Of a stretch of 51,934 bases of DNA, positions 8,605 through 38,741 are shown in pieces. The notes under the pieces are model-generated. The model made no database searches. It was not told the DNA's origin and saw only the letters and a list, made by a program, of their open reading frames with translations. Made by a program: the position numbers and the translations under genes. Source of the stretch: a virus; IMG/VR virus record IMGVR_UViG_3300035564_000113, positions 1-51,934 of that record. The stretch is one strand, 5' to 3'. Positions within the stretch are counted from its first letter, which is position 1. Each line of letters opens with the position of its first letter.

Positions 8605-8605
8605 C

Positions 8606-20197: not shown

Positions 20198-23100
20198 ATG
20201 TCGGAAATAGATGACCTCGTTCCTCCGGCAGACCAATCCGCCACAACTGAATCAGCATACGGCGCGATTGACTCATTAACTCCGCCGACGAAATACGGGG
20301 ACATAGACTCTCTGGCACCGCCTGCCTCGCCAGAAGAGACCGCGAAGAAAAGAACCGCACTTTTCGGACAGGCCATCGACGGAATGCCGATAACGTGGCT
20401 GGAAAAAGCGGCCATGAAAGCCGCTCTGACCAAGGGCGGTAAAATCGGCGATTTGGCAATAAACGTCGTTGTACCAATCAGCGGTATGATCGGAGGGGGT
20501 GCGATTGGCGCAGGGGTCGGAGCCCCGGAAGGTGGGGTTGGTGCCATACCAGGGGCGGTTATCGGTTCTAGATTGGGCGGAGCTGCTGGCGGAGCCGCAG
20601 CCGACACCATGGTACAGGCGCGGCAATTCATTCGCGGTGAACGCACGTCATTTTCACCCGGAAGCGTAGTGGCATCTGCCGCCATCGGCGCGTTTATCCC
20701 CAAGCCAATATCGTCGGCAACTACCGTCGCGGGGACTTTGGCCAAGACGGTCCTGACGCGCGCCGGCCAAGGGGCGTTGCTCAATGCGACGCACACGGCG
20801 ATGAGTGAGTTGATCGACGGTGGGAAGCTGAATCTCAGCAACATCATCGAAAGCGGAGCGTGGGGCACGCTTTTCGGCGGTGCGGTGGGAACGGTTGAAG
20901 GCGTTGCTCCGATGGCTCTAAATCTGTTGAAGTCGATCAATGGAAAGACGCCGGCTGAAGCCACGAAGATCATCGCGGAGTCGAACGTCGATGGCTCGCT
21001 GAAGACCGAACTCCAGAAGCGGATCGAGGAAATGGTGGGGTACAAGCGGTCGCAGGAGATTCGCGAAAATCCGCCGGCAACGCCAACGGGTGCGCTTGCG
21101 CAGGAGAACCCGCCTGTCATCAAGAGCGCGGCGGAATCGGCTCGCGTGTTTCAGGACGCTGAAGCGATGGATTCCTTGACCGCCAACGCTTCCAAGGTTG
21201 CCCCCAAAATAACCGAGAGAGAGAAGAACTTTCAGTATCAGTTGGAAGATGAACTCAACCGTCCGTCGGAGGTTGTTTATCCAGAGGGTGCCGAAGGTTC
21301 CGCGATGGCTCTAGCGGCGGAATTCCCACCAATCAAGAGTGCGGCGGAATCGGCGAAGGTATTCGAGAGTGCTATGCAAAACGCTAAAGACGTTGCAGAC
21401 CTTGAGACAAGGTTTGCAACTCGTTTAACTGATGAATCTCACATCCAGCCGAACGAGTACCATAACTTTGCGAATGAATCGTTTGAGAGATTGCGCGCAT
21501 TGAAAAACCAGATAGATACCCTCGAATCTCATCAGCGAACGGTCTGGGAGCCTGAGAACCTGCCAAATATGTCTTCGCAGGCGCAGAAGATTTACGACCA
21601 GCACGGGTTTGTTTTGCCGAAGGTGGCCATGACGCTGGCCGGCGGCGGCGGAGGGTTCGCCTATGGGATGGCGCAACCGGGCACGCCCGAAGAGAGGATC
21701 AAGCTGGCGATGACCTACGGGGCCATCGGAGCGACCATCGGATACGGAACCGGAATCGGAATATCGAAGATGGCCGAGGCCGGGGAATTCGGCGGCCTGA
21801 AGGCGCTGACCGACCTTGGCGTTTTGAAAGGTCTCTGGAAGCGCGGCATGATTAACGAGGCGCTAACTTACACGCATGATGCAGTGCCGAACAAGGCCAA
21901 CCTGCTGGGGCGGGAGTCGGGCAACGCCATCACTGATGCATTGTCTCAGGTTGTTCCCGCGGCGGAAATGAAGATCGCGCAGCAGGCGCTCCCGTTCGTG
22001 GTCGAGGCCAAGGGATTTCCTGGCGCGGTGGACGCCATGATGGAAAAGGTCTCGCTATCGACCAAGGCCAACCCGAAGGCGCGGCTCGAGGCGATGGCGG
22101 CGCTCCAATACGCGAAAGACAATTTCGAAAATCTGTCCGGGCCGGCGAAGTTGCATGGCGAGATGACGCTGGCGCAGGCGGCGCGAGAAAACGCCAACGG
22201 CGGCGACGTGCTGATCCGTGACGGCTACGTGAAGCATTCGTGGCACTCTGACGACCTTGAAGGGAATCCGCTGGGTTCTGGTCGCTCTGCCGGCTCGAGT
22301 TCGCCGCAAGAGAAGATGCGGACCTATGACACCTTCGCTGATGGCATCGCCAACGGCGAGGTTCCGAAGACCCTGAACGCATCGGACCTGATGCAGAGCC
22401 GTGTGACCGCGGGCGAGACGAAGATCGGGCGCCTACAATGGCTGGAGTCCATGAAGGATTACCCGCCCGACCCGCTGACGGGCAATCCGCTGGTTGAAAA
22501 GGTGACGACCGAAACGCGGCCGGACGGCAAGACCTACGAAACGGCCCCGAAGGGGTACACAGTTCAGCGGGTAGGCGGGCAGAGCTTCGCGCTTCTCAGT
22601 GGGTACGGCGACGTTTTCAACGACCTGAATAATCCAAGTTGGTGGTCTGGTGGGCCATTGCGGCGGGCAACGATGGCATCCACGGCCGGCGCGAAGTCGA
22701 TTCGCCTGGTTGGCGACGTTTACCACCTTGTGCGGATCGGTGCCATGGAGGCGGGTGCGCGAGCCTTCAACGCGCTGGACAGGATTCGCCAGGGGGCGTC
22801 GCCGATGGATGCGATCACGAGTTCTGGGATGCGGGACTTAGACAACAGCGTGGAGACCCTGCAACGCATGGCGGAGCGTGGCGACATCACGAAGGCGGAA
22901 CTCGATGCGTCGATCCTGCGTAAACAGGAGGTCGGAAAACTTGTGGACAACGGGTTGATGCTTGGAAGCGTCGAGGATGCCTCGCACCAAGAATTCATGC
23001 GCGGCATCCCGCTGGCCGGAGATTTCCAAAAGTTCCTTTTTACGTCGTTTCAGCGCCGGGCCATGAAGGATGTTGCGCTGATGGAACTCGGTCGGCGCGC

Positions 23101-24259
23101 ACTGAGCTACGGCGACAACATCCCCGAGTCGATCTATCGCGACACGGCCAAAGACGTGAATACGTGGTTCCGAAATTTCGGTTCGCAGGGCGCGGTTCGT
23201 TCGCAGACTGGAAAGGACACGACCCGATTTTTGGTACTGGCCCCACAGTGGACAGAGGGCGCGATTCGATCCGAGATTGGCGCAGTGAGGCAGGGGGCAG
23301 AGGCGCTGGCCGGCGGCAAAAAACCCATCGGCCTGTTGGCCGGTGCCACCGGCGCGGTGATCGGCGGATCGTTCGTCGCCAACCAGATCATCAACCAGTA
23401 CACGCGCGGACATCCGACGTGGGAAAACAATGAGGAAGGCGTCGGGGCGAAGATTTCCGCATGGGTTCCCGATTACGCCGGGCGGGCTATGGGGAAAGAA
23501 GGGCCGGGATTCTTCATCAACCCGTTGGGCATAGCCGGGGAAACGGCGCATTTGCTGGTGGCGGGATATGAAAAGACTGATGACTTTGCCCGAACGCTGG
23601 CTGATTACATCAGGAACCGGGCAGCGGCGGTGACGAGCCCTGCCGCGGTCTTCTTCACGCATACGGACAACATGGGGCGCCCGGTCAAGAAGGGCGAAAC
23701 GGTTACTGAGATGATGAAGGCAGCCATCCCTTCCCCGATTCCAACGCAAGCAATCACCGGGTCGATCAATTCGGTCGTGACCCAGCATCCGCAGCAGAAG
23801 TTCGTCGGGCAATTCCAGCGGCAACTAATGACTACCGTTGGAATCCGAGCTGACCAAGCGCCCTCGCCAGAACAACGGATTTACGGCCTCGTCCGCGACT
23901 TCAAGAAAGAAAACAAGATCGAAGAAAACCCGGCCTACAACGGGTCCGATTATCAGGATTTGCGGACGGCTCTCAAAACCGGGAACGAGCTGGATGCGTC
24001 TGACGCAATGGATGAAATCCTTACGAAAAAGACTCCCCAGCAGGTTAAGCAGTATTTCGAGACCCTTCCAAATCATCCGTTCACGGGCAGCGAACGGACT
24101 GAGGGTAAATTCATCAGCTCGTTGAACCCCGAGCAGAGCGGCCAGTATTACAAGGCAGTGAATGATCGCGTAGCCGTGGCACGCGATGGGCTCAAGTTGC
24201 TTGCGTCTCGGCTGGCGGCAAAGGCGCAGGCATCGGGTTCTGGCGCGCAATCTGATTGA
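20198..24259 (+). CDS. Large internal virion protein (ejection-type), 1353 aa
   Basis: Largest gene of the window. The N terminus has three short repeats (IDDLVPPA, AIDSLTPP, DIDSLAPP). Glycine-zipper membrane-like segments lie near 98-140 and 470-530. PPVIKSAAESARVFQDA near 307 and PPIKSAAESAKVFESA near 385 form an internal duplication. The C-terminal third is helical with another hydrophobic Gly/Ala stretch (IGLLAGATGAVIGGSFVA). Size, membrane-like segments and last place in the late operon fit a large ejection protein. I see no transglycosylase Glu motif. Its last 68 bases overlap the convergent heptosyltransferase gene. Confidence 0.72.
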   Translation: MSEIDDLVPPADQSATTESAYGAIDSLTPPTKYGDIDSLAPPASPEETAKKRTALFGQAIDGMPITWLEKAAMKAALTKGGKIGDLAINVVVPISGMIGGGAIGAGVGAPEGGVGAIPGAVIGSRLGGAAGGAAADTMVQARQFIRGERTSFSPGSVVASAAIGAFIPKPISSATTVAGTLAKTVLTRAGQGALLNATHTAMSELIDGGKLNLSNIIESGAWGTLFGGAVGTVEGVAPMALNLLKSINGKTPAEATKIIAESNVDGSLKTELQKRIEEMVGYKRSQEIRENPPATPTGALAQENPPVIKSAAESARVFQDAEAMDSLTANASKVAPKITEREKNFQYQLEDELNRPSEVVYPEGAEGSAMALAAEFPPIKSAAESAKVFESAMQNAKDVADLETRFATRLTDESHIQPNEYHNFANESFERLRALKNQIDTLESHQRTVWEPENLPNMSSQAQKIYDQHGFVLPKVAMTLAGGGGGFAYGMAQPGTPEERIKLAMTYGAIGATIGYGTGIGISKMAEAGEFGGLKALTDLGVLKGLWKRGMINEALTYTHDAVPNKANLLGRESGNAITDALSQVVPAAEMKIAQQALPFVVEAKGFPGAVDAMMEKVSLSTKANPKARLEAMAALQYAKDNFENLSGPAKLHGEMTLAQAARENANGGDVLIRDGYVKHSWHSDDLEGNPLGSGRSAGSSSPQEKMRTYDTFADGIANGEVPKTLNASDLMQSRVTAGETKIGRLQWLESMKDYPPDPLTGNPLVEKVTTETRPDGKTYETAPKGYTVQRVGGQSFALLSGYGDVFNDLNNPSWWSGGPLRRATMASTAGAKSIRLVGDVYHLVRIGAMEAGARAFNALDRIRQGASPMDAITSSGMRDLDNSVETLQRMAERGDITKAELDASILRKQEVGKLVDNGLMLGSVEDASHQEFMRGIPLAGDFQKFLFTSFQRRAMKDVALMELGRRALSYGDNIPESIYRDTAKDVNTWFRNFGSQGAVRSQTGKDTTRFLVLAPQWTEGAIRSEIGAVRQGAEALAGGKKPIGLLAGATGAVIGGSFVANQIINQYTRGHPTWENNEEGVGAKISAWVPDYAGRAMGKEGPGFFINPLGIAGETAHLLVAGYEKTDDFARTLADYIRNRAAAVTSPAAVFFTHTDNMGRPVKKGETVTEMMKAAIPSPIPTQAITGSINSVVTQHPQQKFVGQFQRQLMTTVGIRADQAPSPEQRIYGLVRDFKKENKIEENPAYNGSDYQDLRTALKTGNELDASDAMDEILTKKTPQQVKQYFETLPNHPFTGSERTEGKFISSLNPEQSGQYYKAVNDRVAVARDGLKLLASRLAAKAQASGSGAQSD

Positions 24260-25334
24260 TCTTCGCCATGATCCGGCTGGGCAGGATGGATTCGATGGCG
24301 GTACAGCGTCCGGTCATCGCGCAGGGGCCGGCAGGCGGCAGTTCTGGCAGGCCAATGTGGTGCGAATGGAAGCAGGGAGCAATGGGACAGCCTTCGATGC
24401 CTTGCAGGGCGTGGACGAACTCGTAGTAGGCGGTGCGCAGCTTCCACGGAAAGGCTCCGAAAAGACCCACGGCAGGCACACCTAGCGCGCCAGCCGCGTG
24501 CAAAAGAGACGAGTCTGGGGCCAGTACCACGTCACACGTCAACAGGAAGGCCACGGATTGCCGCCACGTCAGCCCGAGACGCGAAAGATCGAATACGCCC
24601 TTGCTGTTCGTTCCATCAACGCGGAACTCGCCCATGCGTCCCAGCAGGTAAACTTCCCAGTTCTCGCGGCGCAATGCTTCAACAATGAGACCGATTCTCG
24701 GATAGGTCCGGCAGCGAGCTCCCGCCTGCACCTGAATCCCGATACGGCGCTTCTCAGTGCGTGGGAAACTTGCCCAAACCCACTCGCGTTCGGCACCGGA
24801 CACGACGTAATCGGCGCGCTTATCCTTCAGTTCGCCCAACCCCAGGTGTTCCGCGAACCGATCCGTCATGTGTTGTTCCTTCGCCCGCGGGTTGAACTCC
24901 ACTGAACCCTCCAGGCACAAGACGCAATCGTAGCGGGACAATTGGGCAAGCGGCAGCGGATAGTCGGCGAAGGCGTCCACGTAGGGAAGCCCCAATAATG
25001 GCTGACGATATTCGTGGAGTGTAGCCACGGTGAGAGTCGCCTGTGGGTGGAGTTGTTTGATTTGGCGTAGGCATGGCGTTAAAAGAATGGCGTCTCCGAA
25101 ACCGATTGGGGCGACGATGAGGATATTGCTACCGAATCCTGAATTGGGAAGTCTCCAGAACACCGCCAGATCATCGGCATGGTCTTCGATGTAGCGTTGA
25201 AGCGGAATCATGGTTGACCCCGGAGCGCGCAGCATGATCTCCGCTCCGTTGCGGTCCTCCACGATATATTCGCCGGCAGGTAGGCTGCCTTGCGGGCCGA
25301 GGTCAAGCGGGCTTGGGAGAGTCAGGACGTGCAT
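24192..25334 (-). CDS. Heptosyltransferase-type glycosyltransferase (GT9)
   Basis: 380 residues, GT-B fold. The first domain has APIGFGDAILLTPCLR (75-90), the glycine loop of GT9 enzymes. The second has DVVLAPDSSLLHAAGALGVP followed by AVGLFGAFPW (268-296), the nucleotide-sugar binding signature with D274 and H279. GT9 enzymes add heptose from ADP-heptose to lipopolysaccharide core; the donor and acceptor here are unknown. An N-terminal extension of about 65 residues precedes the usual start. It is the promoter-distal end of the glycan island and runs tail-to-tail into the ejection gene. Confidence 0.88.
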   Translation of the reverse strand: MHVLTLPSPLDLGPQGSLPAGEYIVEDRNGAEIMLRAPGSTMIPLQRYIEDHADDLAVFWRLPNSGFGSNILIVAPIGFGDAILLTPCLRQIKQLHPQATLTVATLHEYRQPLLGLPYVDAFADYPLPLAQLSRYDCVLCLEGSVEFNPRAKEQHMTDRFAEHLGLGELKDKRADYVVSGAEREWVWASFPRTEKRRIGIQVQAGARCRTYPRIGLIVEALRRENWEVYLLGRMGEFRVDGTNSKGVFDLSRLGLTWRQSVAFLLTCDVVLAPDSSLLHAAGALGVPAVGLFGAFPWKLRTAYYEFVHALQGIEGCPIAPCFHSHHIGLPELPPAGPCAMTGRCTAIESILPSRIMAKINQIARQNPMPAPLPPAETQAT

Positions 25335-25606
25335 TTGAGAATAGAAAGACGAAAATACCCATAGTGTCCAAGTTGGCCGGAATTATTGTCGGGATTGCTG
25401 ATCCACCTAAGTGTCGGAATTCCCCATTCCGGTTTCCACTCGCGATAGAGTGCGTTCACTTGATCGCATATCTTCCCAGTAAGCGCCTCATTAAGATGAT
25501 ATTTCATGTCCGTCATGCAGAGCACCGGACCGGATAACGCAAAGTATTCATTCGGGGCCAGTGGGGGAGTTAGGACGTTAACTACAATGTCTTTGTTGGT
25601 ATTCAT
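25322..25606 (-). CDS. Small protein with a capsid C-terminus-like motif, 94 aa
   Basis: Residues 67-89 read RWISNPDNNSGQLGHYGYFR then LSI. The C terminus of the likely major capsid protein (33460) has RWINNPDMSTNALGNFGFYR then LDI at 355-377: 12 identities in 23 positions without a gap, with Phe/Tyr swaps elsewhere. DNA identity is low, so this is an old relationship or convergence. The N-terminal 65 residues are unlike the capsid. Starts at the ATG at 25606 in an ATCCCATG context and overlaps the heptosyltransferase start by 13 bases. Function unknown. Confidence 0.65.
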   Translation of the reverse strand: MNTNKDIVVNVLTPPLAPNEYFALSGPVLCMTDMKYHLNEALTGKICDQVNALYREWKPEWGIPTLRWISNPDNNSGQLGHYGYFRLSILKCTS

Positions 25607-25610
25607 GGGA

Positions 25611-26072
25611 TTATTTCTGGCCGGGGCGTTTCATTGCAAGCATGGGAGTGAAGCCAAATCTCGCGTAGAGTTTCTGTGCATCGTTGGTAACTAACATACA
25701 TGGGCGTGGACTGACTTCGGGATGGGTCATCACGGCGTTGATGAGAAATTGCCCGAGTCCTTTCCCTTGGAATTGCTGTTGCACGAACACGTCGCAGAGC
25801 CATGAGAAAGTAGCGTAGTCAGTCACAACGCGTGCGAATCCAATCTGGTGGTCGGAATACCCAACGGGGCCATCTTCGGCTTCCGCAGTCCGGCGCTCGT
25901 ACAGGCCAAAGCAGAGGGAGTTTTCTATGGACTTCATCACCACGGGGAGCGTCAGCCATCCGCCCCAGTACGTATGTTGAAGTTGGTTCGTGATGAGGGG
26001 AACGTTCAACAGCGATTTGTCCGAACTGACGAAGAAATTACCGAGGCGTGGGCCGTCGCCGATGGGGTTCAT
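25611..26072 (-). CDS. GNAT-family N-acetyltransferase
   Basis: 153 residues. VFVQQQFQGKGLGQFLINAV holds the acetyl-CoA binding motif A (Q-Xaa-K-G-L-G), and NDAQKLYARFGF is the typical C-terminal motif. It would transfer an acetyl group from acetyl-CoA to an amine. Inside the glycan island an amino-sugar or a virion protein lysine is a plausible acceptor, but the sequence does not say which. Coupled by ATGA to the 68-residue gene upstream. Confidence 0.88.
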   Translation of the reverse strand: MNPIGDGPRLGNFFVSSDKSLLNVPLITNQLQHTYWGGWLTLPVVMKSIENSLCFGLYERRTAEAEDGPVGYSDHQIGFARVVTDYATFSWLCDVFVQQQFQGKGLGQFLINAVMTHPEVSPRPCMLVTNDAQKLYARFGFTPMLAMKRPGQK

Positions 26073-26275
26073 AGAAAGTCCCGGTTTGGAAACGCACGGT
26101 TGAAGAAATGGATGATGGCCCCTTCTTGTTTACTGACATCTTTCCATTTCGACTCGGCTATACGATGTGCTGCGCATCTCTCTTTCCCCTGAGCACGTCT
26201 ATTTTCTTCAAAAGCATTTTTATAAACAGACCATGCTTTTGATAGGGCATCTATAAGGTTGGCGAATTCGTTCAT
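26069..26275 (-). CDS. Small unknown protein, 68 aa
   Basis: Starts MNEFANLIDALSKAWSVYKN. Helical and charged, ending HFFNRAFPNRDFL. ATGA overlaps with both neighbours tie it to the acetyltransferase and methyltransferase-like genes. No known motif. Confidence 0.6.
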   Translation of the reverse strand: MNEFANLIDALSKAWSVYKNAFEENRRAQGKERCAAHRIAESKWKDVSKQEGAIIHFFNRAFPNRDFL

Positions 26276-26877
26276 TTTCTAAGATGGGTTGGCAGTGCGG
26301 ATAGAATCGGCTCCATGCTGTGACTGGCAATCCAGCAGCTCCCGCGGACTGCGCCGGTTTCGGTGTTAGATGGCGCAACGGGGAAATACGGAGTGAGCGT
26401 GTGTTTGGCCAGCACTGGAGAGATAAGCGGAAGAGCGATGACGCTCTCGCAGCCGTAGTCGTCAAACCTGTATCCATCGTCTTCAGGCACCTTGAAATCG
26501 TCGATCAGAATCACGAAGTCGGCCCATCGTGACGCGATGATGTCGATTTCTTCTGCCAGCGGAAGTTCTGGCCCCCAGTGCGCGTCGAGATAGAAGAATG
26601 TCCGTGGATGTCCATCCAGTAAGGCGGACAGGAAAGTTCTGGAATCACCGAGAAGGCATCGAACGTCCAATCCAACGGTATTCTTTTGGGACTCACGCCA
26701 TGGCACTTCCTGCACTTCCATGGTCACTACCGGAAGCCCCGTCAATTCAGCCAACCATGCCGAGGTGTGCCCGCATGAACTTCCCGTCTCGCAAATGATT
26801 TCAAACGCAGACCTCTCCCGAACGGCGTTGAATGCCTCGATGCGCCGCTCCTGTCCGTTGAATCCGAGGAATCTCAT
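26272..26877 (-). CDS. Class I SAM-methyltransferase-like protein
   Basis: 201 residues. FEIICETGSSCGHTSAWLAE resembles motif I of class I methyltransferases (ETGxxxG). VVTMEVQE matches the acidic strand-2 end. GDSRTFL, FYLDAHWG and FVILIDDFKV follow at the expected later strands. Similar proteins are found near sugar-transfer genes and methylate hydroxyls. The first Gly of the usual E-Xaa-G-Xaa-G loop is partly replaced, so activity is not certain. A small gene follows at its upstream side with ATGA overlap. Confidence 0.7.
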   Translation of the reverse strand: MRFLGFNGQERRIEAFNAVRERSAFEIICETGSSCGHTSAWLAELTGLPVVTMEVQEVPWRESQKNTVGLDVRCLLGDSRTFLSALLDGHPRTFFYLDAHWGPELPLAEEIDIIASRWADFVILIDDFKVPEDDGYRFDDYGCESVIALPLISPVLAKHTLTPYFPVAPSNTETGAVRGSCWIASHSMEPILSALPTHLRK

Positions 26878-27071
26878 TGGGTAATACGCTGCCAGATTGT
26901 CGGCTTAGTTTCGCGGAATATTTTTCTGTTTGGAACGAGACATGGCCCCCACGGTGTCGTTAAAATAGAGAATTCTTCATCTCGTACCGCCATACACCTT
27001 CCAACAACAGCGTGTCCGTTGCTGTGGATTGTGTCGGATGCCCAATACCACTTTCCTATTTCTGTTTTCAT
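26874..27071 (-). CDS. Small unknown protein, 65 aa
   Basis: The ATG at 27071 is preferred (MKTEIGKWYWASDTIHSNGH); a longer frame to 27140 adds a basic, non-domain-like extension overlapping the zinc-finger gene. Beta-rich with many Trp. No known motif. Lies between methyltransferase-like and zinc-finger genes. Confidence 0.5.
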   Translation of the reverse strand: MKTEIGKWYWASDTIHSNGHAVVGRCMAVRDEEFSILTTPWGPCLVPNRKIFRETKPTIWQRITQ

Positions 27072-27091
27072 GATCGTAAAAAACGAGTGGG

Positions 27092-27313
27092 TTATATAGC
27101 CTTTGCGCATTCTTCGCTGCAATAGGTGCCGTTCCACCAATAACCGGGTGCTATACGATTATGCGTGATCCGATTACAGCAAGCGCAATTCACGTATATA
27201 GACGGCGCCGATTTAGCAGATGGGAAAAGGCGTTCAAATTCATCTTTAGAAACGGTTGCCACTAGATCGCCACTAAAAACCTGAAACGTTAGTTGTTCAG
27301 TTTGTTGGTTCAT
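27092..27313 (-). CDS. Small zinc-finger protein, 73 aa
   Basis: The C-terminal part CACCNRITHNRIAPGYWWNG followed by TYCSEECAKAI has two Cys-Xaa2/3-Cys pairs (treble-clef-like). The N-terminal half is beta-rich (QLTFQVFSGDLVATVSKDEF). Such small phage zinc fingers usually mediate protein or nucleic-acid contacts. Coupled to the GT11-like gene by ATGA. Confidence 0.7.
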   Translation of the reverse strand: MNQQTEQLTFQVFSGDLVATVSKDEFERLFPSAKSAPSIYVNCACCNRITHNRIAPGYWWNGTYCSEECAKAI

Positions 27314-28101
27314 GATTCCTTCCAGTGGAGTTCAGAGTGACCCCAGTAGTTTGTAATCGGCATGTGATTTCCTTCGACGAAAGGCACGTCCTGATAGAGC
27401 GGACGATCGCCACGCGACGGGATGCCGACGATGTTCGGGCAGAACACCCGCTTATTGTTTCCGATGAGCGCGGCCATCAGTGAAAAGGTGGAGTTCGCGC
27501 GCAACAAGATGTCCGCGTTCATCAGCGCGTAGAAATCGGGCAGGAATCCCAGCCCCTTGTCGAGCGCGGGATCTCCACCGCGAGAGTGTTCGTTCCCCTT
27601 GACCGGAAACCCTGGCAGAACGATGGGATCTTCTTCGGAGATAAAGCGGAGCTTTGTCGCGTCGATTCCAAATTTCTCGCACGCCTTGAAGTAGGACTTG
27701 CTGGAAATCGTCACGAAGTCATCAAGTCCAACGAAGTCAGCCCAGCGCAGATGCGCGGCAACCTCGAAATGCGGAACGGCTTTGAGCATCTCCAATATCT
27801 CGGGCCGAAACGTGAACCATTTCCGAGCCTGCGCCCGCGTGTAGTACAGGCTGTGCTGATGCAGTCCACCGCCTGAAATTCGGATGTCCGTCTCGCCTGC
27901 CCAGTCTTCGATGGTATCCTCACTGCGTTCGTGCATGTTCATGCTGGCAATCGGAGGATCGTCGATCATGAAAACCTTCTGCCCCATCCACGGGTTTGTC
28001 TGGAGCGTGCAGCCGTAGCGTTCGGCGTAGCCGCGCACGAAGGCATATTGTGCCATACGATTGCAGAATCCCTCTTGAAGAATGGTGGTGATGACGCTCA
28101 T
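27310..28101 (-). CDS. GT11-like fucosyltransferase-type glycosyltransferase
   Basis: 263 residues, usual size. EGFCNRMAQYAFVRGYAERY near the start replaces the GGLGNQMFQYA motif of GT11 enzymes. HLRWADFVG (near 118) corresponds to the HxRRxD GDP-fucose motif. DFYALMNADILLRANSTFSL (near 190-210) matches the last GT11 motif with the invariant ANSTFS. The enzyme would add a deoxyhexose such as fucose from GDP-fucose. The changed HxR(W)xD motif makes the exact donor uncertain. Confidence 0.82.
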   Translation of the reverse strand: MSVITTILQEGFCNRMAQYAFVRGYAERYGCTLQTNPWMGQKVFMIDDPPIASMNMHERSEDTIEDWAGETDIRISGGGLHQHSLYYTRAQARKWFTFRPEILEMLKAVPHFEVAAHLRWADFVGLDDFVTISSKSYFKACEKFGIDATKLRFISEEDPIVLPGFPVKGNEHSRGGDPALDKGLGFLPDFYALMNADILLRANSTFSLMAALIGNNKRVFCPNIVGIPSRGDRPLYQDVPFVEGNHMPITNYWGHSELHWKES

Positions 28102-28847
28102 GGAATCACCCGTTGCAGTGTCGCCAAAATCTTCGCCCGTTTCTCGCAGGCGTGGGTACTTCCGGCCATCGTCGGACCCCAGCCGTATTGCTTGTTGAGG
28201 TCAGAGTAACGCTGCCGCGTCTCGTCATATTCTCGCGCGATTTCTTCGATGGGTCGGATGTGGTGAAAGTGAAGCAGGTAAGTGCTGGGGATGTTTGGCG
28301 TCACCGGATTTGCAAACGGCGTTCCGTCTTGCAGGTGCCCGGTGCAGACGTGAGCGCCGCACCCGAAATCAATATCATGAATTCGCTTCGGCGAGAACAG
28401 TATTGGCTTCGCGTAATCAACGTCATCTTTTCCGCCCATCTTGATTTCATCGTAGACCTGCCCGGTGCAGGTCGGAAACACGTCTGATAGCATCTCCCAG
28501 CCGTAGGGCTTGACGACCGCCACGCCTTGTTGCGCGTAAGAGTCAAGCGTTGGGCCAACCCCAGCCGGGAAATAGATCAGTTCATCGGCATCAGCACAGA
28601 TCACCCAGTCGGCGTCAGTCCCACGCCATGCGGCGTTTTTAAGTTGTTTATTGAGGAGGTCATTTATCTTCCCTCCGGTATCGAAACCAATCACATCGAC
28701 TCCAAACTTCTTGGCAATCTCGCGCGTGCCATCAGTCGAGAAAGCGTCATGCACCACGATGCGATCACAAAAGGTTTGGTAGTGGCGCAGCGCGTAGGCG
28801 ATGAACGCCTCTTCGTTGAAAGTGATGAGGTGGGCTTCGATTTTCAT
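28098..28847 (-). CDS. Family 2 glycosyltransferase
   Basis: 249 residues from the ATG at 28847, which overlaps the previous stop (ATGA). EAHLITFNEEAFIAYALRHY at the start and VVHDAFSTDGTREIAKKFGV are the GT2 (GT-A) nucleotide-binding region. DADWVICADADELIYFPAG carries the DxD metal site. The C-terminal part (THACEKRAKILATL) has the helical cap of the glycosyltransferase group with unclear donors. Acts in the cytoplasm on an unknown acceptor. Confidence 0.87.
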   Translation of the reverse strand: MKIEAHLITFNEEAFIAYALRHYQTFCDRIVVHDAFSTDGTREIAKKFGVDVIGFDTGGKINDLLNKQLKNAAWRGTDADWVICADADELIYFPAGVGPTLDSYAQQGVAVVKPYGWEMLSDVFPTCTGQVYDEIKMGGKDDVDYAKPILFSPKRIHDIDFGCGAHVCTGHLQDGTPFANPVTPNIPSTYLLHFHHIRPIEEIAREYDETRQRYSDLNKQYGWGPTMAGSTHACEKRAKILATLQRVIP

Positions 28848-29611
28848 TTTCTGACCCAAAGGGCGTGTGGGCAGTCCGACAACCCAAGCGGCTCTTCGGC
28901 GATGAGGTTAAAGTGCTGTTCGATCATCGGACGGAAACTAACCGGGAATTTCTCGTTCCACAGTGCGTAGGCACTCCCCATTGTCCCGTGTGATACGGTG
29001 AAGAGGAATGGCGTACCCATCGACACGATCACATCAATCCAGTTCTGAACCTGTGCCGGCGAACACTCGTTCCACGAGTGGATATTAATGGCGACGTGCG
29101 GCCGCATCGTAGCCGAATCGGTTATGAACTCATCCAGTGTCAGCACTTTCACGGGCGGATAGAAACGCTGGCAGTAGTAGCGGCAAAGTTTCGTGCTGAT
29201 GGGAATCGCGTCCACGCAAGTCATCGTGTGCGTCAGTGGGGCGAGCATCACCGCCAACCGGCCGTAGCCTGCGCCAATCTCTAGGATGTCTGCATAACTA
29301 AGTTCCATTGGCAAGTGGCGGCGCAGGAAATCAATTTCGATGTTCGCCTCCAGCCACATTCGATTGACGCGCCCAAGCGCCGGTGTATCGACCATGCGCG
29401 CCCCGAATTCCTCATCACGACTTTTCCCGCAAGGATCAGCCATGAAGCAGGTTAATTTGTCTACTTGCTCGGCAGCACGGCAGAACCGTTCTTCGGCCGG
29501 GTTGCCCTGTTCGACGTAAATGGCATTGGCGGCGAAGTACGGCAGCGCATCGCGCACCACTTCGCACCACGTTTTCCACATGCCACCGTCAGATAGGTCT
29601 TCTGGTTTCAT
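28844..29611 (-). CDS. SAM-dependent methyltransferase, putative sugar O-methyltransferase
   Basis: 255 residues from the ATG at 29611 (ATGA overlap with the fusion gene); a longer start at 29641 is less likely. YADILEIGAGYGRLAVMLAP holds motif I (EIGAGYG), and MTCVDAIPISTKLCRYYCQR the acidic strand-2 residue. An N-terminal helical cap of about 100 residues and the C-terminal HALWVRK fit the putative sugar O-methyltransferase family found in polysaccharide loci. Likely role: capping or decorating a glycan. Confidence 0.85.
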   Translation of the reverse strand: MKPEDLSDGGMWKTWCEVVRDALPYFAANAIYVEQGNPAEERFCRAAEQVDKLTCFMADPCGKSRDEEFGARMVDTPALGRVNRMWLEANIEIDFLRRHLPMELSYADILEIGAGYGRLAVMLAPLTHTMTCVDAIPISTKLCRYYCQRFYPPVKVLTLDEFITDSATMRPHVAINIHSWNECSPAQVQNWIDVIVSMGTPFLFTVSHGTMGSAYALWNEKFPVSFRPMIEQHFNLIAEEPLGLSDCPHALWVRK

Positions 29612-30948
29612 TCGGAGATTTTGATGAATGCCACCTGCCACGCTTTCCCGATCACCTGAATCTCTCGCGCGTAGATCGCCAGAAATGAGTCGATCGCCAT
29701 CTTCGGCCGGTCAATCGGAAGCGGCATGGAGTCCCATGCGTAGTCGTCACAGATCATCACGCCTCCGATCTTGAGAAGACGGAAGGCGAAAACCATATCG
29801 GAGAGTGCGCCTTTCGCGGTGTGCAGTCCATCCACGTAGATGAAGGACAGACTTGCCGGGAAGGTCGGAAGCACGTTCCCAGAGTAATCCTTGATGATCG
29901 TGCATTGCGGGAAGCGGGCGAGCCGAGCCCTGGCGGCTTCTTCAATGTGAGACACGTCAATTCTGTGCAAGACGTGCTCAGGACTTCCGGTGAACGGATC
30001 ACAGCAGAAAAATTGCGCCCCGTCGCCAGTCACGATGTTGTCGCAAAACCATTCGGCAGATTCGCCCTGGAAGGTGCCAATTTCCATCCCTACCACACCT
30101 TTCTTGCCCTGAAATGGAGCGAGCCATTTGAGCCAATTAGGGCCGTGTGCTCGGCCGGTTTCTGACTTGGCGATGTTCACCACTTGAGCCGAAGGGATCG
30201 GGGGTGTTGGGATTGCGATGGGCGTTCGCGGCGTTTGAAAGAATCCGGCATAGTTGCCGGCGTCGTCTCCGATTAACTCGCACAGCTTTTCCAGCTTCGG
30301 GTCATCCTTCGCCGCTGAGTCGCGCCGGACGTGTGCCGGCCCGTACCCAACTTTTCCCGGCATCGCCTTGATGCCAATAACCATTCGCCGGCCGTAGATT
30401 CCGTTTGGGCTCAAGACCATCTTCCGGTTCGGTGCCAGTTTCCAAAGCGGCTCGTCAATAAAAGCGTCGTTGTCCGGAGAGCGCATGATTCCGTTGCAGA
30501 CCTCAAGTATGAGCGGAAAGAACCTGCGACCAATGGCGGTTGAACACAAGCTGGCGTGGGTGGCGTTCGTGTGCGAAAACCACGTTCGGTCCCGCACGTT
30601 GTAGTATACGGCCCAGCCCTCGCCGACTAAATCGAGATTGGCCAATTTCTCAGCGCACCACGCAATCCAGTTCTCGCGGTAGAAATCGTCATCCTCAATG
30701 AAAACGAGCGCATCGCCCTTCACTAACCCGCCGACCAGCGCCATGCGAACCTTACTGACCATGCTTTTCTTGCCGCGAAACTCCGGGCAGTAGATGTATT
30801 GCTGACCCATCGTCGGAACAATGGGTTTGTCTCCATCGTCGAGAACGAGCCATTGGTCGGGCTTGCGAGTCTGCCGCGAAACATATTTTTCGCAGAGAGC
30901 GAAAGCCTCGGGGCGGTCGGCAGTGCAGGTGATAGCGGTAATGAGCAT
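29608..30948 (-). CDS. Two-domain glycosyltransferase-methyltransferase fusion
   Basis: 446 residues. Residues 1-230: GT2-type domain with ITAITCTADRPEAFALCEKY, WLVLDDGD and ALVFIEDDDFY (metal site). A Pro-rich linker near 245-260 (PRTPIAIPTPPIPS) leads to a class I methyltransferase domain with MEIGTFQGESAEWFCDN (motif I near 290), FCCDPFTG, and FIYVDGLHTAKGALSDMVFA then VMICDDYAWDS. A single chain could add a sugar and methylate it. The adjacent genes encode the same two activities separately. Confidence 0.85.
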   Translation of the reverse strand: MLITAITCTADRPEAFALCEKYVSRQTRKPDQWLVLDDGDKPIVPTMGQQYIYCPEFRGKKSMVSKVRMALVGGLVKGDALVFIEDDDFYRENWIAWCAEKLANLDLVGEGWAVYYNVRDRTWFSHTNATHASLCSTAIGRRFFPLILEVCNGIMRSPDNDAFIDEPLWKLAPNRKMVLSPNGIYGRRMVIGIKAMPGKVGYGPAHVRRDSAAKDDPKLEKLCELIGDDAGNYAGFFQTPRTPIAIPTPPIPSAQVVNIAKSETGRAHGPNWLKWLAPFQGKKGVVGMEIGTFQGESAEWFCDNIVTGDGAQFFCCDPFTGSPEHVLHRIDVSHIEEAARARLARFPQCTIIKDYSGNVLPTFPASLSFIYVDGLHTAKGALSDMVFAFRLLKIGGVMICDDYAWDSMPLPIDRPKMAIDSFLAIYAREIQVIGKAWQVAFIKISE

Positions 30949-30957
30949 GGGGAAAAT

Positions 30958-31668
30958 CTATCGTGTGAGGTAATCGAACGAATGGCTTGGCATGTAGCGG
31001 GCGAACCGCTGTTGAAGGAAGGCCAGATTCTTGGCGTGCCACTCGCGGCACTGCGGGACCATGGCGGACGTAGCGCCGCGGTAATGCGTGAACGGAAGGT
31101 CAACACGGTGCAGATTGTAGCCGGCCTCGCGCATCCGCAGCGATATGTAGGCGTCCTCTCCGTAGGCTCCCTCAAGCTCTGGCGGAAACAGGCCGGGCTC
31201 CACGGCGCGCACCTTCTCGGTATCCATGCAAAGCATCGCGCCCTCCAGATACTCGAAACGCGGGCCAACCTCGCCGCAGAAGTCATCGCGCAACTGGCAG
31301 CACCCGCCCGCCGGCCCAGTCATGGCGCACTTCGGATCGACTGCGAACGGAGCCTTGAGCACGTCAAGCCATCCGCGCGTAACCACCGTGTCATCGTTCA
31401 GCATGACAAAGTATTTGCCCTTGGCCCACGTGAACGCCCGGCGATTCGGCATAATAAATCCCATGTTTTCCGAATTGTGAATGGCACCGACTTTGCCGGG
31501 ATATGCGAATTTCATTTCCTCGAAAAACCTCTCGACCTCGGTCGATCCTCCATTGTCCGTCAGGATCAGCTCGAAGTCACCGCCAGCCGATAGCACGGAG
31601 TCTATGCAACGCTTCGCCATCGGCAGCGCCGTGTACGTCAGGATCGATATGGAGAATTCAGGCGTCAT
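30958..31668 (-). CDS. Family 2 glycosyltransferase
   Basis: 236 residues from the ATG at 31668, overlapping the ABA-sandwich stop (ATGA). FSISILTYTALPMAKRCIDS, FELILTDNGGST and YFVMLNDDTVVTRGWLDVLK give the GT2 core with an NDDT metal motif. GEDAYISLRMREAGY carries the catalytic ED pair. Closest to rhamnosyl- and galactosyltransferase-like GT2 enzymes in general appearance, but substrate is unknown. First enzyme transcribed in the island. Confidence 0.88.
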   Translation of the reverse strand: MTPEFSISILTYTALPMAKRCIDSVLSAGGDFELILTDNGGSTEVERFFEEMKFAYPGKVGAIHNSENMGFIMPNRRAFTWAKGKYFVMLNDDTVVTRGWLDVLKAPFAVDPKCAMTGPAGGCCQLRDDFCGEVGPRFEYLEGAMLCMDTEKVRAVEPGLFPPELEGAYGEDAYISLRMREAGYNLHRVDLPFTHYRGATSAMVPQCREWHAKNLAFLQQRFARYMPSHSFDYLTR

Positions 31669-31985
31669 TTTGAGTCGTCCCATTTGCCGATGGTGCGCAG
31701 GAAGGCTTCGGCGCGTTGGGAGGAAGTAGCAAAAATGCAATCAGCTAGAGCCAAGCATCCGGGCGAATTTCTCAATTCGGCCAATGTGAGCACGAACTTA
31801 ACCTTCTGCATAGCAGTCCGCGTCTTCTCTGCCTCGTGCATGGCGTTGAGGTCGGAGGGGTATTGTGGAACTTCCGATTCGGCATGAACCATATCATCTC
31901 CGGGCAACCACCAATCACCCGCATGTATGCCTTTCTTCCATCCGCACGCCTCCGCAATCGCGATCCGTTGTGCTTCAGGGGTCAT
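31665..31985 (-). CDS. Phage ABA-sandwich-like protein
   Basis: 106 residues. MTPEAQRIAIAEACGWKKG, WWLPGDDM, YPSDLNAMHEAEKT and the later LADCIFATSSQRAEAFLRTI match the phage ABA-sandwich pattern common in accessory regions of phages that infect diverse bacteria. Function is unknown. The ATG at 31985 has the ATCCCATG context; an upstream GTG or other start is less typical of the family. Confidence 0.8.
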   Translation of the reverse strand: MTPEAQRIAIAEACGWKKGIHAGDWWLPGDDMVHAESEVPQYPSDLNAMHEAEKTRTAMQKVKFVLTLAELRNSPGCLALADCIFATSSQRAEAFLRTIGKWDDSK

Positions 31986-32194
31986 GGGATTTTGCTGTAC
32001 TTGGCCGCGCAATCCTCGATTCCAACCCAGAGTTCACGTAGGCGGCATAGTTGGTTTTCGAGCGGCTCGTTCAATTTGAAAGGCATCTGGTAACTGAACG
32101 TCTTCCCTTCAGGGGTCTCAAAGAGCATTTGAAGTTGGATGATGCCGAGAACCTCGTGAACCAAAACAATGTCGATGAGTCGCCAAGTTTTCAT
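31982..32194 (-). CDS. Small unknown protein, 70 aa
   Basis: The ATG at 32194 follows GAAGGAGCAAGAA, one of the clearest Shine-Dalgarno sequences in the window. Starts MKTWRLIDIVLVHEVLGIIQ and is beta-rich. ATGA overlaps at both ends. No family is recognised. Confidence 0.65.
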   Translation of the reverse strand: MKTWRLIDIVLVHEVLGIIQLQMLFETPEGKTFSYQMPFKLNEPLENQLCRLRELWVGIEDCAAKYSKIP

Positions 32195-32328
32195 TTCTTG
32201 CTCCTTCGTTTCGCGAGCGCCGAGTAGTACGCCGAGTCGCCGCGGCTGCGTGACGGCACTTTCTTGCCCTTCGTCTTCCCGCCCAGAGCGGCGAGATACT
32301 TGATGACTTCGGGATGCAACGGCTTCAT
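32191..32328 (-). CDS. Small basic protein, 45 aa
   Basis: Short gene with ATGA overlaps at both its start (32328) and its stop, so it fits the operon exactly. The product (MKPLHPEVIKYLAALGGKTK, ending AKRRSKK) is Lys/Arg-rich and probably binds nucleic acid or another protein. Its last codons also contain the Shine-Dalgarno of the next gene. Confidence 0.65.
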   Translation of the reverse strand: MKPLHPEVIKYLAALGGKTKGKKVPSRSRGDSAYYSALAKRRSKK

Positions 32329-32588
32329 TGCTCAAGTCGAAGCTCGATGATTTTGTGTTGGTGAAGCGCCTCAAGTAAAACTCGGGCGTCATTCGATATT
32401 GGCGATGAACCTGAGGCAGCTAACCCCTTCAAAAATGATTCCGCGTGCCCACCTTCATGGATCGTAATTGTGCCCTCAAGACTCCCGTCATGGCCAAAGA
32501 ATTCCCTACAGAAAGCCCACTTGAACTCTGTATCCAGATGGCGATTCATTACGGGTGAAACTGGTTTCCAGACAAGCGTCGTGCTCAT
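32325..32588 (-). CDS. Small unknown protein, 87 aa
   Basis: The ATG at 32588 (MSTTLVWKPVSPVMNRHLDT) is the conservative start. A TTG at 32624 overlaps the upstream stop as TTGA, a coupled arrangement, and would add 12 residues. A central FGHDGSLEGTITIHEGGHAE stretch is beta-like. No family is recognised. Confidence 0.55.
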   Translation of the reverse strand: MSTTLVWKPVSPVMNRHLDTEFKWAFCREFFGHDGSLEGTITIHEGGHAESFLKGLAASGSSPISNDARVLLEALHQHKIIELRLEQ

Positions 32589-32620
32589 GCCGCGCACCGT
32601 GCGCGTACCGTTTGAGCTTG

Positions 32621-33250
32621 TCAAGGAGAAATCGTGCGCGTGATGGTATGTTGGGAAACCTTCTGCGATGGCTTGATGATTTCCTCATAGGGAAGCCCGT
32701 GTTCCATCCTACGTTTTAGCCCGGGAACTGAGATGCCTATTTCCTTTGCCCACTCGGCGGCAGTTTTGGTAATCCCGTTCAAAACGATTCGTTCTGACCT
32801 GATACGCTCGCTGGGTTTCGCGAGAAGATCACGCCCTGTCCATCCGAGCTTTATCCGAACTGACATGGTGGGGCGACTAATGCCGGATTCATCTGCCCAC
32901 TGGCTTGCCAGTTTTGATACCCCGTCGATTGTAATTGGTTTGTTACTACGTACGTTTCTCATGTTGGTTGTCCGAGTAACCCAGCGAACATTGCCCGGCT
33001 CATAATTACCGTTGTTGTTGGTACGGTCTAATTCGAGTTCGGGAGATTCGGGCAATCCAACATCGGCGACAAACTGCATGAAGTTGTTCACCCACTGGTC
33101 GCAGATCTTAATGCCGCGGCCACCGTAATCGGCATAGGTCGCATTGCTCGGGTTTAGGCATCGGTCCTTGATGCTCTTCCACCGAAAGAAAATCGACCGT
33201 TCGATTTGGTTCATCGCTTTGACGCAGTAACGCAGTTCATATCGTATCAT
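32621..33250 (-). CDS. HNH-like homing-type endonuclease with two HTH repeats
   Basis: 209 residues from the ATG at 33250. YADYGGRGIKICDQWVNNFM, ELELDRTNNNGNYEPGNVRW and NMRNVR form the zinc-free HNH-like domain common in phage genomes (residues 20-100). Two tandem helix-turn-helix repeats follow: ITIDGVSKLASQWADESGIS (about 106-125) and IVLNGITKTAAEWAKEIGIS (about 155-174), like the DNA-recognition repeats of free-standing homing endonucleases. Such genes spread themselves and their flanks between related phages. This one stands at the upstream end of the glycan island, next to the capsid gene. Confidence 0.78.
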   Translation of the reverse strand: MIRYELRYCVKAMNQIERSIFFRWKSIKDRCLNPSNATYADYGGRGIKICDQWVNNFMQFVADVGLPESPELELDRTNNNGNYEPGNVRWVTRTTNMRNVRSNKPITIDGVSKLASQWADESGISRPTMSVRIKLGWTGRDLLAKPSERIRSERIVLNGITKTAAEWAKEIGISVPGLKRRMEHGLPYEEIIKPSQKVSQHTITRTISP

Positions 33251-33459
33251 TTTATTTTGGGTTGACGGTTGTGAGTTTATCTGAGAGTAGAACACCAATC
33301 TTAAATGTCGGGCCTGATTGCCCCGACTAAAACGCGCCAAGCGCGATTCAGATTCGGCCTGTGAAGGATTGGCCGCCCTTGCAGAAAAACGGGAGACACT
33401 GTGTTCATCACGGATAAACATACCTTCCAAACATCAATCGTCAACTCTAATTTAAAATC
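33251..33459. promoter_or_regulatory. Divergent control region upstream of the capsid gene
   Basis: About 210 non-coding bases between the divergent endonuclease and capsid genes, so promoters for both probably lie here. It contains an inverted repeat GTCGGG (33308-33313) with CCCGAC (33323-33328), possibly a 5-prime hairpin of the capsid mRNA. AT content is higher near both start codons. No convincing -35/-10 pair could be fixed by eye. Confidence 0.5.
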
Positions 33460-34656
33460 ATGGCCAACTTGACAAACATCAATAGTTACTTTCTTACCCG
33501 TCGGTCGCAATTTGAGCAGAACATATTTGCAAGGTTTTGGACAACCGATCCCAATGCTGGGCTTATTGAGCAAAAGCCCTTCGAGCTGGAAATGGGCCTG
33601 ACGCCGACCGTAGTGACGGCGACGCACGATCTGCCGACGAGCTACCTGCCGCTGACGCAGACGGCGCTGGCGCTGTCCAACGGCACGGGCAACACGGCGT
33701 GCAACCCTGGCGTCGTCACGATTGGCGGCGGCTACATCACGCGCAACTTCAACCTGACGGTGAATGCGTTCCAGACGGAAGTGTTCTGCCTGACGGATCT
33801 GCAATTCAAGTTCCAGTGGGAGCAACAGGCGCGGTTCCGCGAGAAGGGGCTCGGCGACTACGTGACGCAGTTCCAAGGTGACTGGGGCCGCGTCAACAAC
33901 ATCGGCCAGCTCAACACAAAGATCAGCACCACGGGGGCCGGCGTCTTCACGCAGGCGACCAGTGCGTTGTTCGATTTCAGCGCGCTCGCCGGCTCACTGC
34001 CCACGGTGGCACTCGACTGGGCGATGCTCGGCCAACTCTACGACCGGCTCAATCAAATCGGCGCGCAGCAAAACGCGGTTGGCATGAGCGACGGTACGCC
34101 GGTGTACGCGCTGAACGTCGGTCCCGGACTCAAGCGGTTGCTCTACCAAGGCAGTTCGACGGCGGCCAGCCTTGTCCGCACGTCGGTTGACTTCATGGAC
34201 ATGGGCAAGGAGTACAGCCGGAACTTCCTGGCGCGGGGCATCGACACGGCGATCAACGGCTTCCTTCCGAACGTCGATCTGTGCCAAGTGCGCTACGATT
34301 CGCAGTTGAATCCGCTGTACCCGTATGTGAACAACCCGGTGACGGTCGGCACAGGCGCGGCGCCCAACCCCAACTACCGCACGGTGGCGAACGGCGGGTT
34401 GGCGGTTTACGAGGCGTTCACGGTCATGGCGCGCGGGGTGTACTCGAAGCGCCCGCGGCCGGTCGGACCGTTGCAGGCTGGGCTGGAGGCGTTCAATCCG
34501 GTGACGTACAGCGGCGAGGTGCGCTGGATCAACAACCCGGACATGAGCACCAATGCGCTGGGCAACTTCGGTTTCTACCGGCTGGACATCCAGCAGGCGG
34601 CCATGCCGGAGTTTCCGGAGCTGGGTTTCGCCGGGATCACCATCGCGGTCGATTGA
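33460..34656 (+). CDS. Probable major capsid protein
   Basis: 398 residues, normal for an HK97-fold capsid protein. The segment LQFKFQWEQQARFREKGLGD then YVTQFQGDWGRVNN resembles the spine-helix to P-loop region of podovirus capsid proteins. The rest is a mixed alpha/beta fold with a beta-rich C terminus containing RWINNPD at 355-361. It has its own control region and a strong terminator, as expected of the most expressed virion gene. After about codon 45 the gene uses mostly G/C-ending codons, unlike its neighbours. No other gene is a better capsid candidate, but it lies 20 kb from the scaffold-like gene. Confidence 0.78.
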   Translation: MANLTNINSYFLTRRSQFEQNIFARFWTTDPNAGLIEQKPFELEMGLTPTVVTATHDLPTSYLPLTQTALALSNGTGNTACNPGVVTIGGGYITRNFNLTVNAFQTEVFCLTDLQFKFQWEQQARFREKGLGDYVTQFQGDWGRVNNIGQLNTKISTTGAGVFTQATSALFDFSALAGSLPTVALDWAMLGQLYDRLNQIGAQQNAVGMSDGTPVYALNVGPGLKRLLYQGSSTAASLVRTSVDFMDMGKEYSRNFLARGIDTAINGFLPNVDLCQVRYDSQLNPLYPYVNNPVTVGTGAAPNPNYRTVANGGLAVYEAFTVMARGVYSKRPRPVGPLQAGLEAFNPVTYSGEVRWINNPDMSTNALGNFGFYRLDIQQAAMPEFPELGFAGITIAVD

Positions 34657-37693: not shown

Positions 37694-38037
37694 AAATCCG
37701 CCTCATCATCGCAGTAATCGCGCTGGCCCTGCTTTCGGGCTGCGCTACGTCAACGCAGAAGAATGCCGGTGCCTTCCTCGCCAAAGTCGCCAGCATGAAC
37801 ATCACGGCGGCTGACGTTAGCCAGTCCACGACCGGGCCGTTCTACAACCATAGCGAGTCTATCAGCGGGCTTCACCACCAACCGGGCTCGTTCTCGATTG
37901 AGAATCTGAAAGCCGAGTTTGGCATCCCGCTGTGGGGCGTCAAGTGGTCGTTCTCGGCCTCAGCTATCTCGGGCGAGACACCGCAGGCCGTCGCCGCCGT
38001 CGCTACCGCCGCCGTCAAAGAGCCAACCACCAAATGA
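37690..38037 (+). CDS. Lipoprotein of the lysis cassette
   Basis: 115 residues. MKIRLIIAVIALALLSGCAT is a signal peptide with lipobox LSGC, so Cys18 would be lipidated and the protein anchored at the outer membrane. The mature part is Ala/Ser/Thr-rich with a beta-like middle. It is longer than a typical Rz1-type outer spanin and is less Pro-rich, but its place in the lysis region makes a spanin-like role possible. ATGA overlaps with both neighbours. Confidence 0.75.
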   Translation: MKIRLIIAVIALALLSGCATSTQKNAGAFLAKVASMNITAADVSQSTTGPFYNHSESISGLHHQPGSFSIENLKAEFGIPLWGVKWSFSASAISGETPQAVAAVATAAVKEPTTK

Positions 38038-38741
38038 TCGACCCGCTAGTAGGCATCAGGCTCGTGCAGGAAGCCTACGCCACGGCCTTTTTGGCTACTG
38101 GCGTGATACCTGACCTGTCTCGCTACGGTTTGGCCGCACAGGGCACCATTTACGGGCCGGAAGGCGACTTCTCGGTTCCGTATGGCTTCCTGCTGGAAGT
38201 GATGGCCAACGGCGATCAGGTGATAGTGCTTCGCGGCACGAACTCGATTTGGGAATGGCTGGAAGATGGCCAGATTCACATGCACACGAACCCTTGGGGG
38301 CCGGGGCTGGTGCATGGCGGGTTCTCAGACATCTGTGGGGCGCTTGGGATAGGTCAGCAGCGCACGCCAATCATCGACGCCATCACGAACCTCTCGCGGC
38401 TGACCATCGTGGGGCATAGTTTGGGCGCTGCGGTTGGCCGGCAGCTCTGCGCCAAGCTGGGCCACGTCGGCGCGATCTACACTTGGGGGGAGCCGCGTTC
38501 CTGCAATGGCGATGCCGCTGGCTACGCGCTCAACTGCGCCACCGTCTCGCGCCGTGCCCGCAACCCACGCGATCTTGTTCCGAAAGTGCCGGTGTTCGAC
38601 CCTTGCCGCCTCTTCGATGGCTACCGCCACGCTGGCGACCCCATCCTGCTTGCCGCAGTAGGTTCAGACCCCATTGACGCCCACTCTGTAACGACGTACA
38701 TTAGCCTCGAATGCCCTTCACCATGCCCGACGAAGACCTAA
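38034..38741 (+). CDS. Class 3 lipase-like alpha/beta hydrolase
   Basis: 235 residues from the ATG at 38034 (ATGA overlap). LTIVGHSLGAAVGRQLCAKL gives the nucleophile elbow GHSLG with Ser129. VLRGTN (65-70) is the oxyanion strand. RNPRDLVPKVP gives Asp180 and DAHSVTTY gives His217, completing the Lipase_3 triad order. IYTWGEPRSCNGD is the family's 'GxPRxGN'-like turn. It would cleave ester bonds in acyl lipids. No signal peptide is seen, so holin release is the likely route. It stands where an endolysin is expected. Confidence 0.85.
   Translation: MIDPLVGIRLVQEAYATAFLATGVIPDLSRYGLAAQGTIYGPEGDFSVPYGFLLEVMANGDQVIVLRGTNSIWEWLEDGQIHMHTNPWGPGLVHGGFSDICGALGIGQQRTPIIDAITNLSRLTIVGHSLGAAVGRQLCAKLGHVGAIYTWGEPRSCNGDAAGYALNCATVSRRARNPRDLVPKVPVFDPCRLFDGYRHAGDPILLAAVGSDPIDAHSVTTYISLECPSPCPTKT

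Follow-up and report, generated by a model that had tools for sequence, protein, structure and literature searches.

The IMG/VR virus record IMGVR_UViG_3300035564_000113, analysed over its whole length of 51,934 bases (the window), carries a block of about 17 minus-strand open reading frames (ORFs) at 24192–33430, between a 1353-residue virion protein and a second protein that we call V398, in which ORF lists and translations reveal a cassette of glycosyltransferase (GT), methyltransferase and acetyltransferase genes. The reading that we prefer, at a probability of roughly 0.58, is that this cassette carries out late, cytoplasmic, stepwise glycosylation of a virion protein from host sugar nucleotides, with the capsid shell protein V398 as the likeliest acceptor. 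A virion target is preferred mainly because GT genes of these families are repeatedly linked to head genes in other phages.

The glycan-gene cassette and its enzymes

An earlier note, made from the letters of the window, had described the block as a seventeen-gene glycan-writing island within a virion-gene region. Its main features, together with V398, are as follows (G and L numbers denote other phage sequences).

24192..25334, minus strand: GT9 glycosyltransferase, heptosyltransferase-fold (Pfam PF01075, 9.8e-6)
25322..25606, minus strand: mini-V398, a 94-residue protein with the V398 C-terminal motif (hhalign E 8e-8)
25611..26072, minus strand: GNAT acetyltransferase (PF13508, 7e-11; homologues in the L019, L058 and L068 cassettes)
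26272..26877, minus strand: MT201, methyltransferase-like by motif reading only (no match in Pfam, PHROG or NCBIfam)
27310..28101, minus strand: GT11-like (fucosyltransferase-like) glycosyltransferase (PHROG_2644 glycosyltransferase, 4e-6, weak; no Pfam match)
28098..28847, minus strand: GT2_4 glycosyltransferase with a DADE motif (PF13704, 2.5e-11; 47–50% identity to G013, G011 and L004)
28844..29611, minus strand: MT265, a class I methyltransferase near the sugar O-methyltransferase family TIGR04371 (NCBIfam, 43.5 bits, 0.5 bit short of the 44-bit cut-off)
29608..30948, minus strand: GT2-Methyltransf_24 fusion (PF13578, 3e-15, and weak PF00535; 49% identity to the same fusion in G013)
30958..31668, minus strand: GT2A, a GT2 core glycosyltransferase (PF00535, 1e-12; kept in six near-complete relatives)
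32621..33214 or -33430, minus strand: HNH (homing-type) endonuclease adjoining V398 (PHROG_3377, 5e-53)
33460..34656, plus strand: V398, probable major capsid protein and proposed acceptor (synteny with the portal and scaffold-like protein)

Read from the V398 side, the minus-strand order is HNH endonuclease, small unknown ORFs, GT2A, GT2-Methyltransf_24 fusion, MT265, GT2_4, GT11-like protein, two small ORFs, MT201, a 68-residue ORF, GNAT, mini-V398 and GT9, with many 4-bp ATGA-type overlaps (26069/26072, 26272/26275, 26874/26877, 27310/27313, 28098/28101, 28844/28847, 29608/29611 and 32621/32624). The existence of a glycan-gene island in the virion region is thus borne out. Its content needs one correction: the promoter-proximal end consists of small unknown ORFs and the HNH endonuclease, with no glycan enzymes, and 25322–25606 encodes the short V398-like protein. 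The enzymes named in the earlier note stood for GT9, the two GT2 proteins, the GT2-methyltransferase fusion and the GNAT, all recognised by Pfam, and less firmly for the GT11-like protein, which is weak by profile yet 59% identical to a protein of relative L060; the two further methyltransferase-like proteins are, respectively, near a family cut-off (MT265) and read from motif alone (MT201). Alignments show that catalytic residues are retained in the cassette GTs.

No gene for sugar-nucleotide synthesis was found within the island, in agreement with the suggestion that host donors are used. The cassette of the relative L064 (10460–13074) has three further genes, for an NAD-dependent epimerase, for a short-chain dehydrogenase and for a Gly_transf_sug GT, so that some relatives probably encode sugar-nucleotide steps.

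In the proposed pathway, for which we infer late expression, a protein acceptor, sugar identity, the order of transfer and a benefit to the phage, GT9, a heptosyltransferase relative with a WaaF/TibC fold, would act at the protein acceptor or close to it. The chain would then be lengthened from host nucleotide sugars by GT2A together with the variable GT2, GT2_4 and GT11-like enzymes and capped by the methyltransferases and the GNAT, and the resulting surface glycan would vary from phage to phage in a serotype-like manner.

Conservation, exchange and head-gene linkage

Relatives of the window were retrieved by a V398 scan of IMG/VR, without selecting for GTs, which returned seven contigs: a 9.8-kb fragment and six that are near complete, two of these six having terminal repeats. 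GT9 and GT2A homologues are present in all six near-complete relatives, with the cassette between virion genes every time, although the site, orientation and accessory genes of the cassette differ among relatives. In type A (G008, G009 and G012; also L057), the whole arrangement lies on one strand, in the order terminase, small genes, GT9, GT2-GT9 fusion, GT2_4-like gene, methyltransferases, portal, scaffold-like protein and V398. In type B (G011, G013, L060 and L064), a 974–1156-residue virion protein converges on GT2_4, GT2-methyltransferase, GT2A and GT9, which are divergent from the terminase. In type C (the window and G007, with L068 similar), the cassette is flanked by the large virion protein and V398. 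The short contigs bearing TerL (G001–G006) showed no V398 and no GT9, but none of these fragments exceeds 24 kb, which makes the result uninformative.

Purifying selection acts on the cassette genes. In comparisons between G008, G009 and G012, the ratio of nonsynonymous to synonymous substitution rates (dN/dS; values rough, with dS near saturation) was 0.05–0.08 for GT9, 0.07–0.08 for the GT2-GT9 fusion, and 0.06–0.08 for the GT2_4-like gene; of the two methyltransferases, one gave 0.10–0.17 and the other 0.03 (a single usable comparison), alongside 0.03–0.13 for virion genes. The cassette is a conserved gene set and not random cargo. Its description as transient bacterial cargo or an assembly artefact with no phage function draws on the GC content, which drops to about 52–53% at 25–28 kb and is low again at 32–33 kb (57–60% in much of the remainder), and on the HNH endonuclease at one end; we regard it as very improbable, given that the cassette is kept across independent assemblies under purifying selection. 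Scans for V398 and GT2A in 84,980 prokaryote (bacterial and archaeal) genomes found no relative at scan sensitivity; the GT2A result speaks against bacterial cargo, and from neither scan could a host be named. Misassembly with a bacterial contaminant, raised in the earlier note, was rejected on the same GT2 result and on the recurrence of the same junctions in independent assemblies. In the window, L019 and L068 alike, GT9 and a virion gene overlap at the 3′ end of the latter, and this shared overlap makes the junction an old one and not an assembly error.

By sequence comparison, the window cassette is a mosaic. The virion genes of the window are nearest to those of G007 (V398 80%, portal 75%), as are the cassette ends (GT9 57%, GNAT 59%, GT2A 64%). 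In the middle, GT2_4 is 48% identical to G013 and 20% to its nearest L019 counterpart, and the GT11-like protein has its 59% match in L060, which shares the window gene order GT2A, fusion, GT2_4, GT11-like. The middle (GT2-methyltransferase, GT2_4 and GT11-like genes) has thus been exchanged between sub-lineages, much like loci that vary a surface glycan; with the cassette middle swapped between related phages, the surface glycan would differ between them.

Linkage to head genes extends beyond these relatives. The GT9 alignment retrieves 53 IMG/VR loci, and the phage GT9 is, judged from its sequences, a virus family common to several lineages that recurs in the vicinity of terminase, portal or major head genes. 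In several other phage groups GT9 is next to the terminase or the portal gene, and an FkbM-type methyltransferase is often present as well: L085 has the order portal, GT9, FkbM methyltransferase, two genes and major head protein, L110 has GT9, portal and major head protein, and L098 has GT9, FkbM-like protein and terminase. Of 41 clusters with a GT9 domain, among which the GT9 half of GT2-GT9 fusions is counted, 24 have a recognised head gene no more than four genes away, compared with 33% for other genes in the same loci, although this control is rough, with loci centred on GT9 and incomplete head seeds, and to that extent weakens the case. Cassettes of the GT2-methyltransferase family lie immediately upstream of the major head protein in L006 and immediately downstream of a probable capsid protein in L009/L011. 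At 1e-5, tblastn of the window GT9, the window GT2A and the L085 GT9 gave no match among 50,697 phage records, and hence no homology at this level to GTs of cultured phages, the mycobacteriophages included.

This recurrent linkage bears directly on the choice of target. Of the capsid, spike, DNA and host surface listed in the earlier note, a virion target, probably the capsid, is the one that comparison among phages favours. The main rival is that, during infection, the enzymes alter the lipopolysaccharide (LPS) core being made by the host, or some other surface glycan, so that superinfection is blocked or progeny are kept from re-adsorbing to debris. GT9 belongs to the LPS heptosyltransferase family with WaaF as its nearest solved structure, GT2 enzymes commonly build surface glycans, and a spike with a polysaccharide-lyase-type fold implies that glycans matter for entry. 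We nevertheless hold host-surface modification to be rather doubtful: the head-gene linkage recurs in several unrelated lineages, the island has no GtrA/GtrB-like, flippase-like or other multi-helix membrane protein, and no integrase or repressor was seen among the window proteins scanned, which are a subset of all its ORFs. O-antigen modification of the Gtr type (seroconversion) was considered separately and rejected, as the island has no flippase or lipid-carrier GT family and the scanned proteins include no lysogeny genes.

A cassette acting on the tailspike or another tail protein, and so tuning adsorption, would fit the position of the window spike gene just after V398 and the tail tube glycosylation reported for mycobacteriophages in the account of PMC12363180; it is improbable, since spikes differ among relatives that have the GT core in common and the cassette adjoins head genes in type-A and type-B genomes. 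More remote still is DNA base modification in the T-even fashion. Some phage GTs modify DNA, and one PHROG match of the GT2-methyltransferase fusion is labelled DNA methyltransferase, but the GT families are of a kind that acts on protein, lipid or sugar, head linkage is kept in relatives, and the scanned proteins, which cover part of the small ORFs, contain no hydroxymethylpyrimidine pathway or other base-hypermodification gene.

Two observations concern other GT loci. In L006 (8947–13077), from another phage, a GroES-like co-chaperonin, GT genes and the major head protein are consecutive. On an unrelated phage contig, L114, a 936-residue GT9-GT2-GT9 protein is encoded near epimerase-type genes (7713–10523).

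GT9, the candidate acceptor and known systems

The phage GT9 has a GT-B heptosyltransferase catalytic domain, supported by AlphaFold2 and Foldseek, to which an N-terminal extension of about 65 residues and a C-terminal four-cysteine motif are added. The AlphaFold2 model, built from 28 phage sequences (predicted local distance difference test score (pLDDT) 88.9, predicted template modelling score 0.88), had WaaF (1psw, E 2.8e-14), a Veillonella GT9 and TibC (E 1.7e-11) as its best Foldseek matches in the PDB. The motif, C-x(2-4)-C-x(13-16)-C-x5-C, is nearly invariant in the 28 phage sequences and stands at the place corresponding to the iron finger of TibC (C-x2-C-x15-C-x11-C; PMC4358343), making it a candidate metal-finger-like motif. 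From the resemblance to TibC a protein acceptor is plausible, and the similarity to WaaF would leave room for a lipid acceptor. The 71-residue ORF that follows GT9 in L060 (7287–7502) is like the N-terminal extension and C-terminal end of GT9, and is perhaps a duplicated remnant.

The TibC/AAH autotransporter heptosyltransferases (PMC4358343) share with the phage GT9 the GT-B heptosyltransferase fold and a four-cysteine motif at the corresponding place, but in the phage enzyme the N-terminal domain is shorter, a thumb is not evident and the last cysteine spacing is x5 instead of x11. With WaaF and WaaC it shares the catalytic core, and differs in the extra extension and the four-cysteine motif and in falling far below the equivalog cut-offs (31.4 bits against TIGR02195, cut-off 134.6). 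In NCBIfam, no TibC/AAH (BAHT) family model matched, and only weak LPS heptosyltransferase matches were found. Membership of GT9 in the TibC/AAH (BAHT) family was rejected on the missing thumb, the missing barrel and the lack of a family-model match.

V398 is probably the major capsid protein, judging from its position after the portal and scaffold-like protein and its high conservation: in types A and B it follows the portal, a small gene and the scaffold-like protein, and it is among the most conserved virion proteins, at 95–96% within type A, where others drop to 70–80%. Mini-V398, which occurs only in the window genome, matches V398 in the motif that is best conserved at the V398 C-terminus (RWISNPDNNSGQLGHYGYFRLSI vs RWINNPDMSTNALGNFGFYRLDI) and was recovered by profile at E 2.9e-6 among 32,090 ORFs. 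It could be what V398 left behind when it moved, or a working short version of that protein. V398 usually comes after the scaffold-like gene, and its displacement from there may be due to the HNH endonuclease.

Several observations weigh against capsid glycosylation by this cassette. The GT9 model has neither the beta-barrel of TibC (~97 residues) nor its thumb hairpin, carrying instead an alpha/beta extension of ~45–60 residues, and the sequence is nearer to LPS heptosyltransferases than to TibC. V398 has no structural support as a capsid protein (AlphaFold2 pLDDT 28) and no match to families, PDB sequences or profiles of recognised head proteins. Neighbouring virion genes run on the opposite strand to the cassette in the window, G007, G011 and G013, so position suggests late co-transcription only in type-A genomes.

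Virus-encoded glycosylation of virions has precedents, which among phages come from a few mycobacteriophages. Che8, Corndog and Myrna attach glycans to their capsid and tail tube by means of GTs that they encode (Freeman 2023, cited in PMC12363180). The likeness, as far as that citing account describes it, lies in phage-encoded GTs that decorate virion proteins, a role proposed for those found here; the difference is that the account names one GT per phage, whereas here four to five GTs and methyl- and acyltransferases form a movable cassette. In the chlorovirus PBCV-1, capsid glycans are made by mostly soluble, virus-encoded GTs, including a GT-methyltransferase protein (A064R, A061L, A111/114R; PMC9614988), recalling the fusion found here. 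A methylated sugar cap and antigenic variants arising through GT gene changes may be set alongside (PMC9614988). PBCV-1 is, by contrast, a eukaryotic virus with N-glycans on its capsid protein Vp54, other GT families and genes scattered in the genome. A literature search found no match for phage GT-methyltransferase capsid islands; new here are the conserved mobile cassette, its modular exchange, a head-linked GT9 family of uncultured phages and its absence by tblastn from the phage collection.

A wider and more tentative proposal is that several uncultured tailed-phage lineages possess a virus-specific head-module system, in which a founder GT9 with a metal-finger-like motif would place the first capsid sugar, swappable GT and methyltransferase modules would generate capsid glycotypes, and mini-V398 would be a capsid-derived partner or acceptor. 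If true, virion glycosylation would be a common strategy, with a cassette tied to head genes across unrelated uncultured phages, and many stray phage GTs now filed as auxiliary or moron genes would be explained; the soluble enzymes could also serve for making defined glycans on protein shells.

Genome setting and neighbouring genes

The window ends in a 123-bp direct terminal repeat, indicating that the phage record is probably complete. A plus-strand virion module runs from the terminase through the 1353-residue protein ending at 24259 and is followed by the minus-strand island, beyond which a second plus-strand block holds V398 and a tailspike-like protein. Scans for promoters and terminators gave a signal no better than chance, or below.

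6823-8604, in the plus-strand virion module: terminase (PHROG_2)
20198..24259, plus strand: 1353-residue virion protein, its 3′ end overlapping the GT9 gene (homologue at the same junction in L019)
34772..37270, plus strand: tailspike-like protein with a pectate-lyase-type domain (PF12708, 1e-16)

The terminase, portal and V398 had no tblastn match across the same 50,697 phage records, and the collection scan gave no relative of the 1353-residue protein, yet L019 encodes one. The replication side encodes Erf, RusA, YqaJ and a PAPS-reductase-like protein (42002–42883, minus strand; PHROG_424, 2e-44). Downstream of the tailspike, at 38034–38741 on the plus strand, lies a Class 3 lipase domain protein (PF01764, 4e-10), possibly an esterase or lysis-related.

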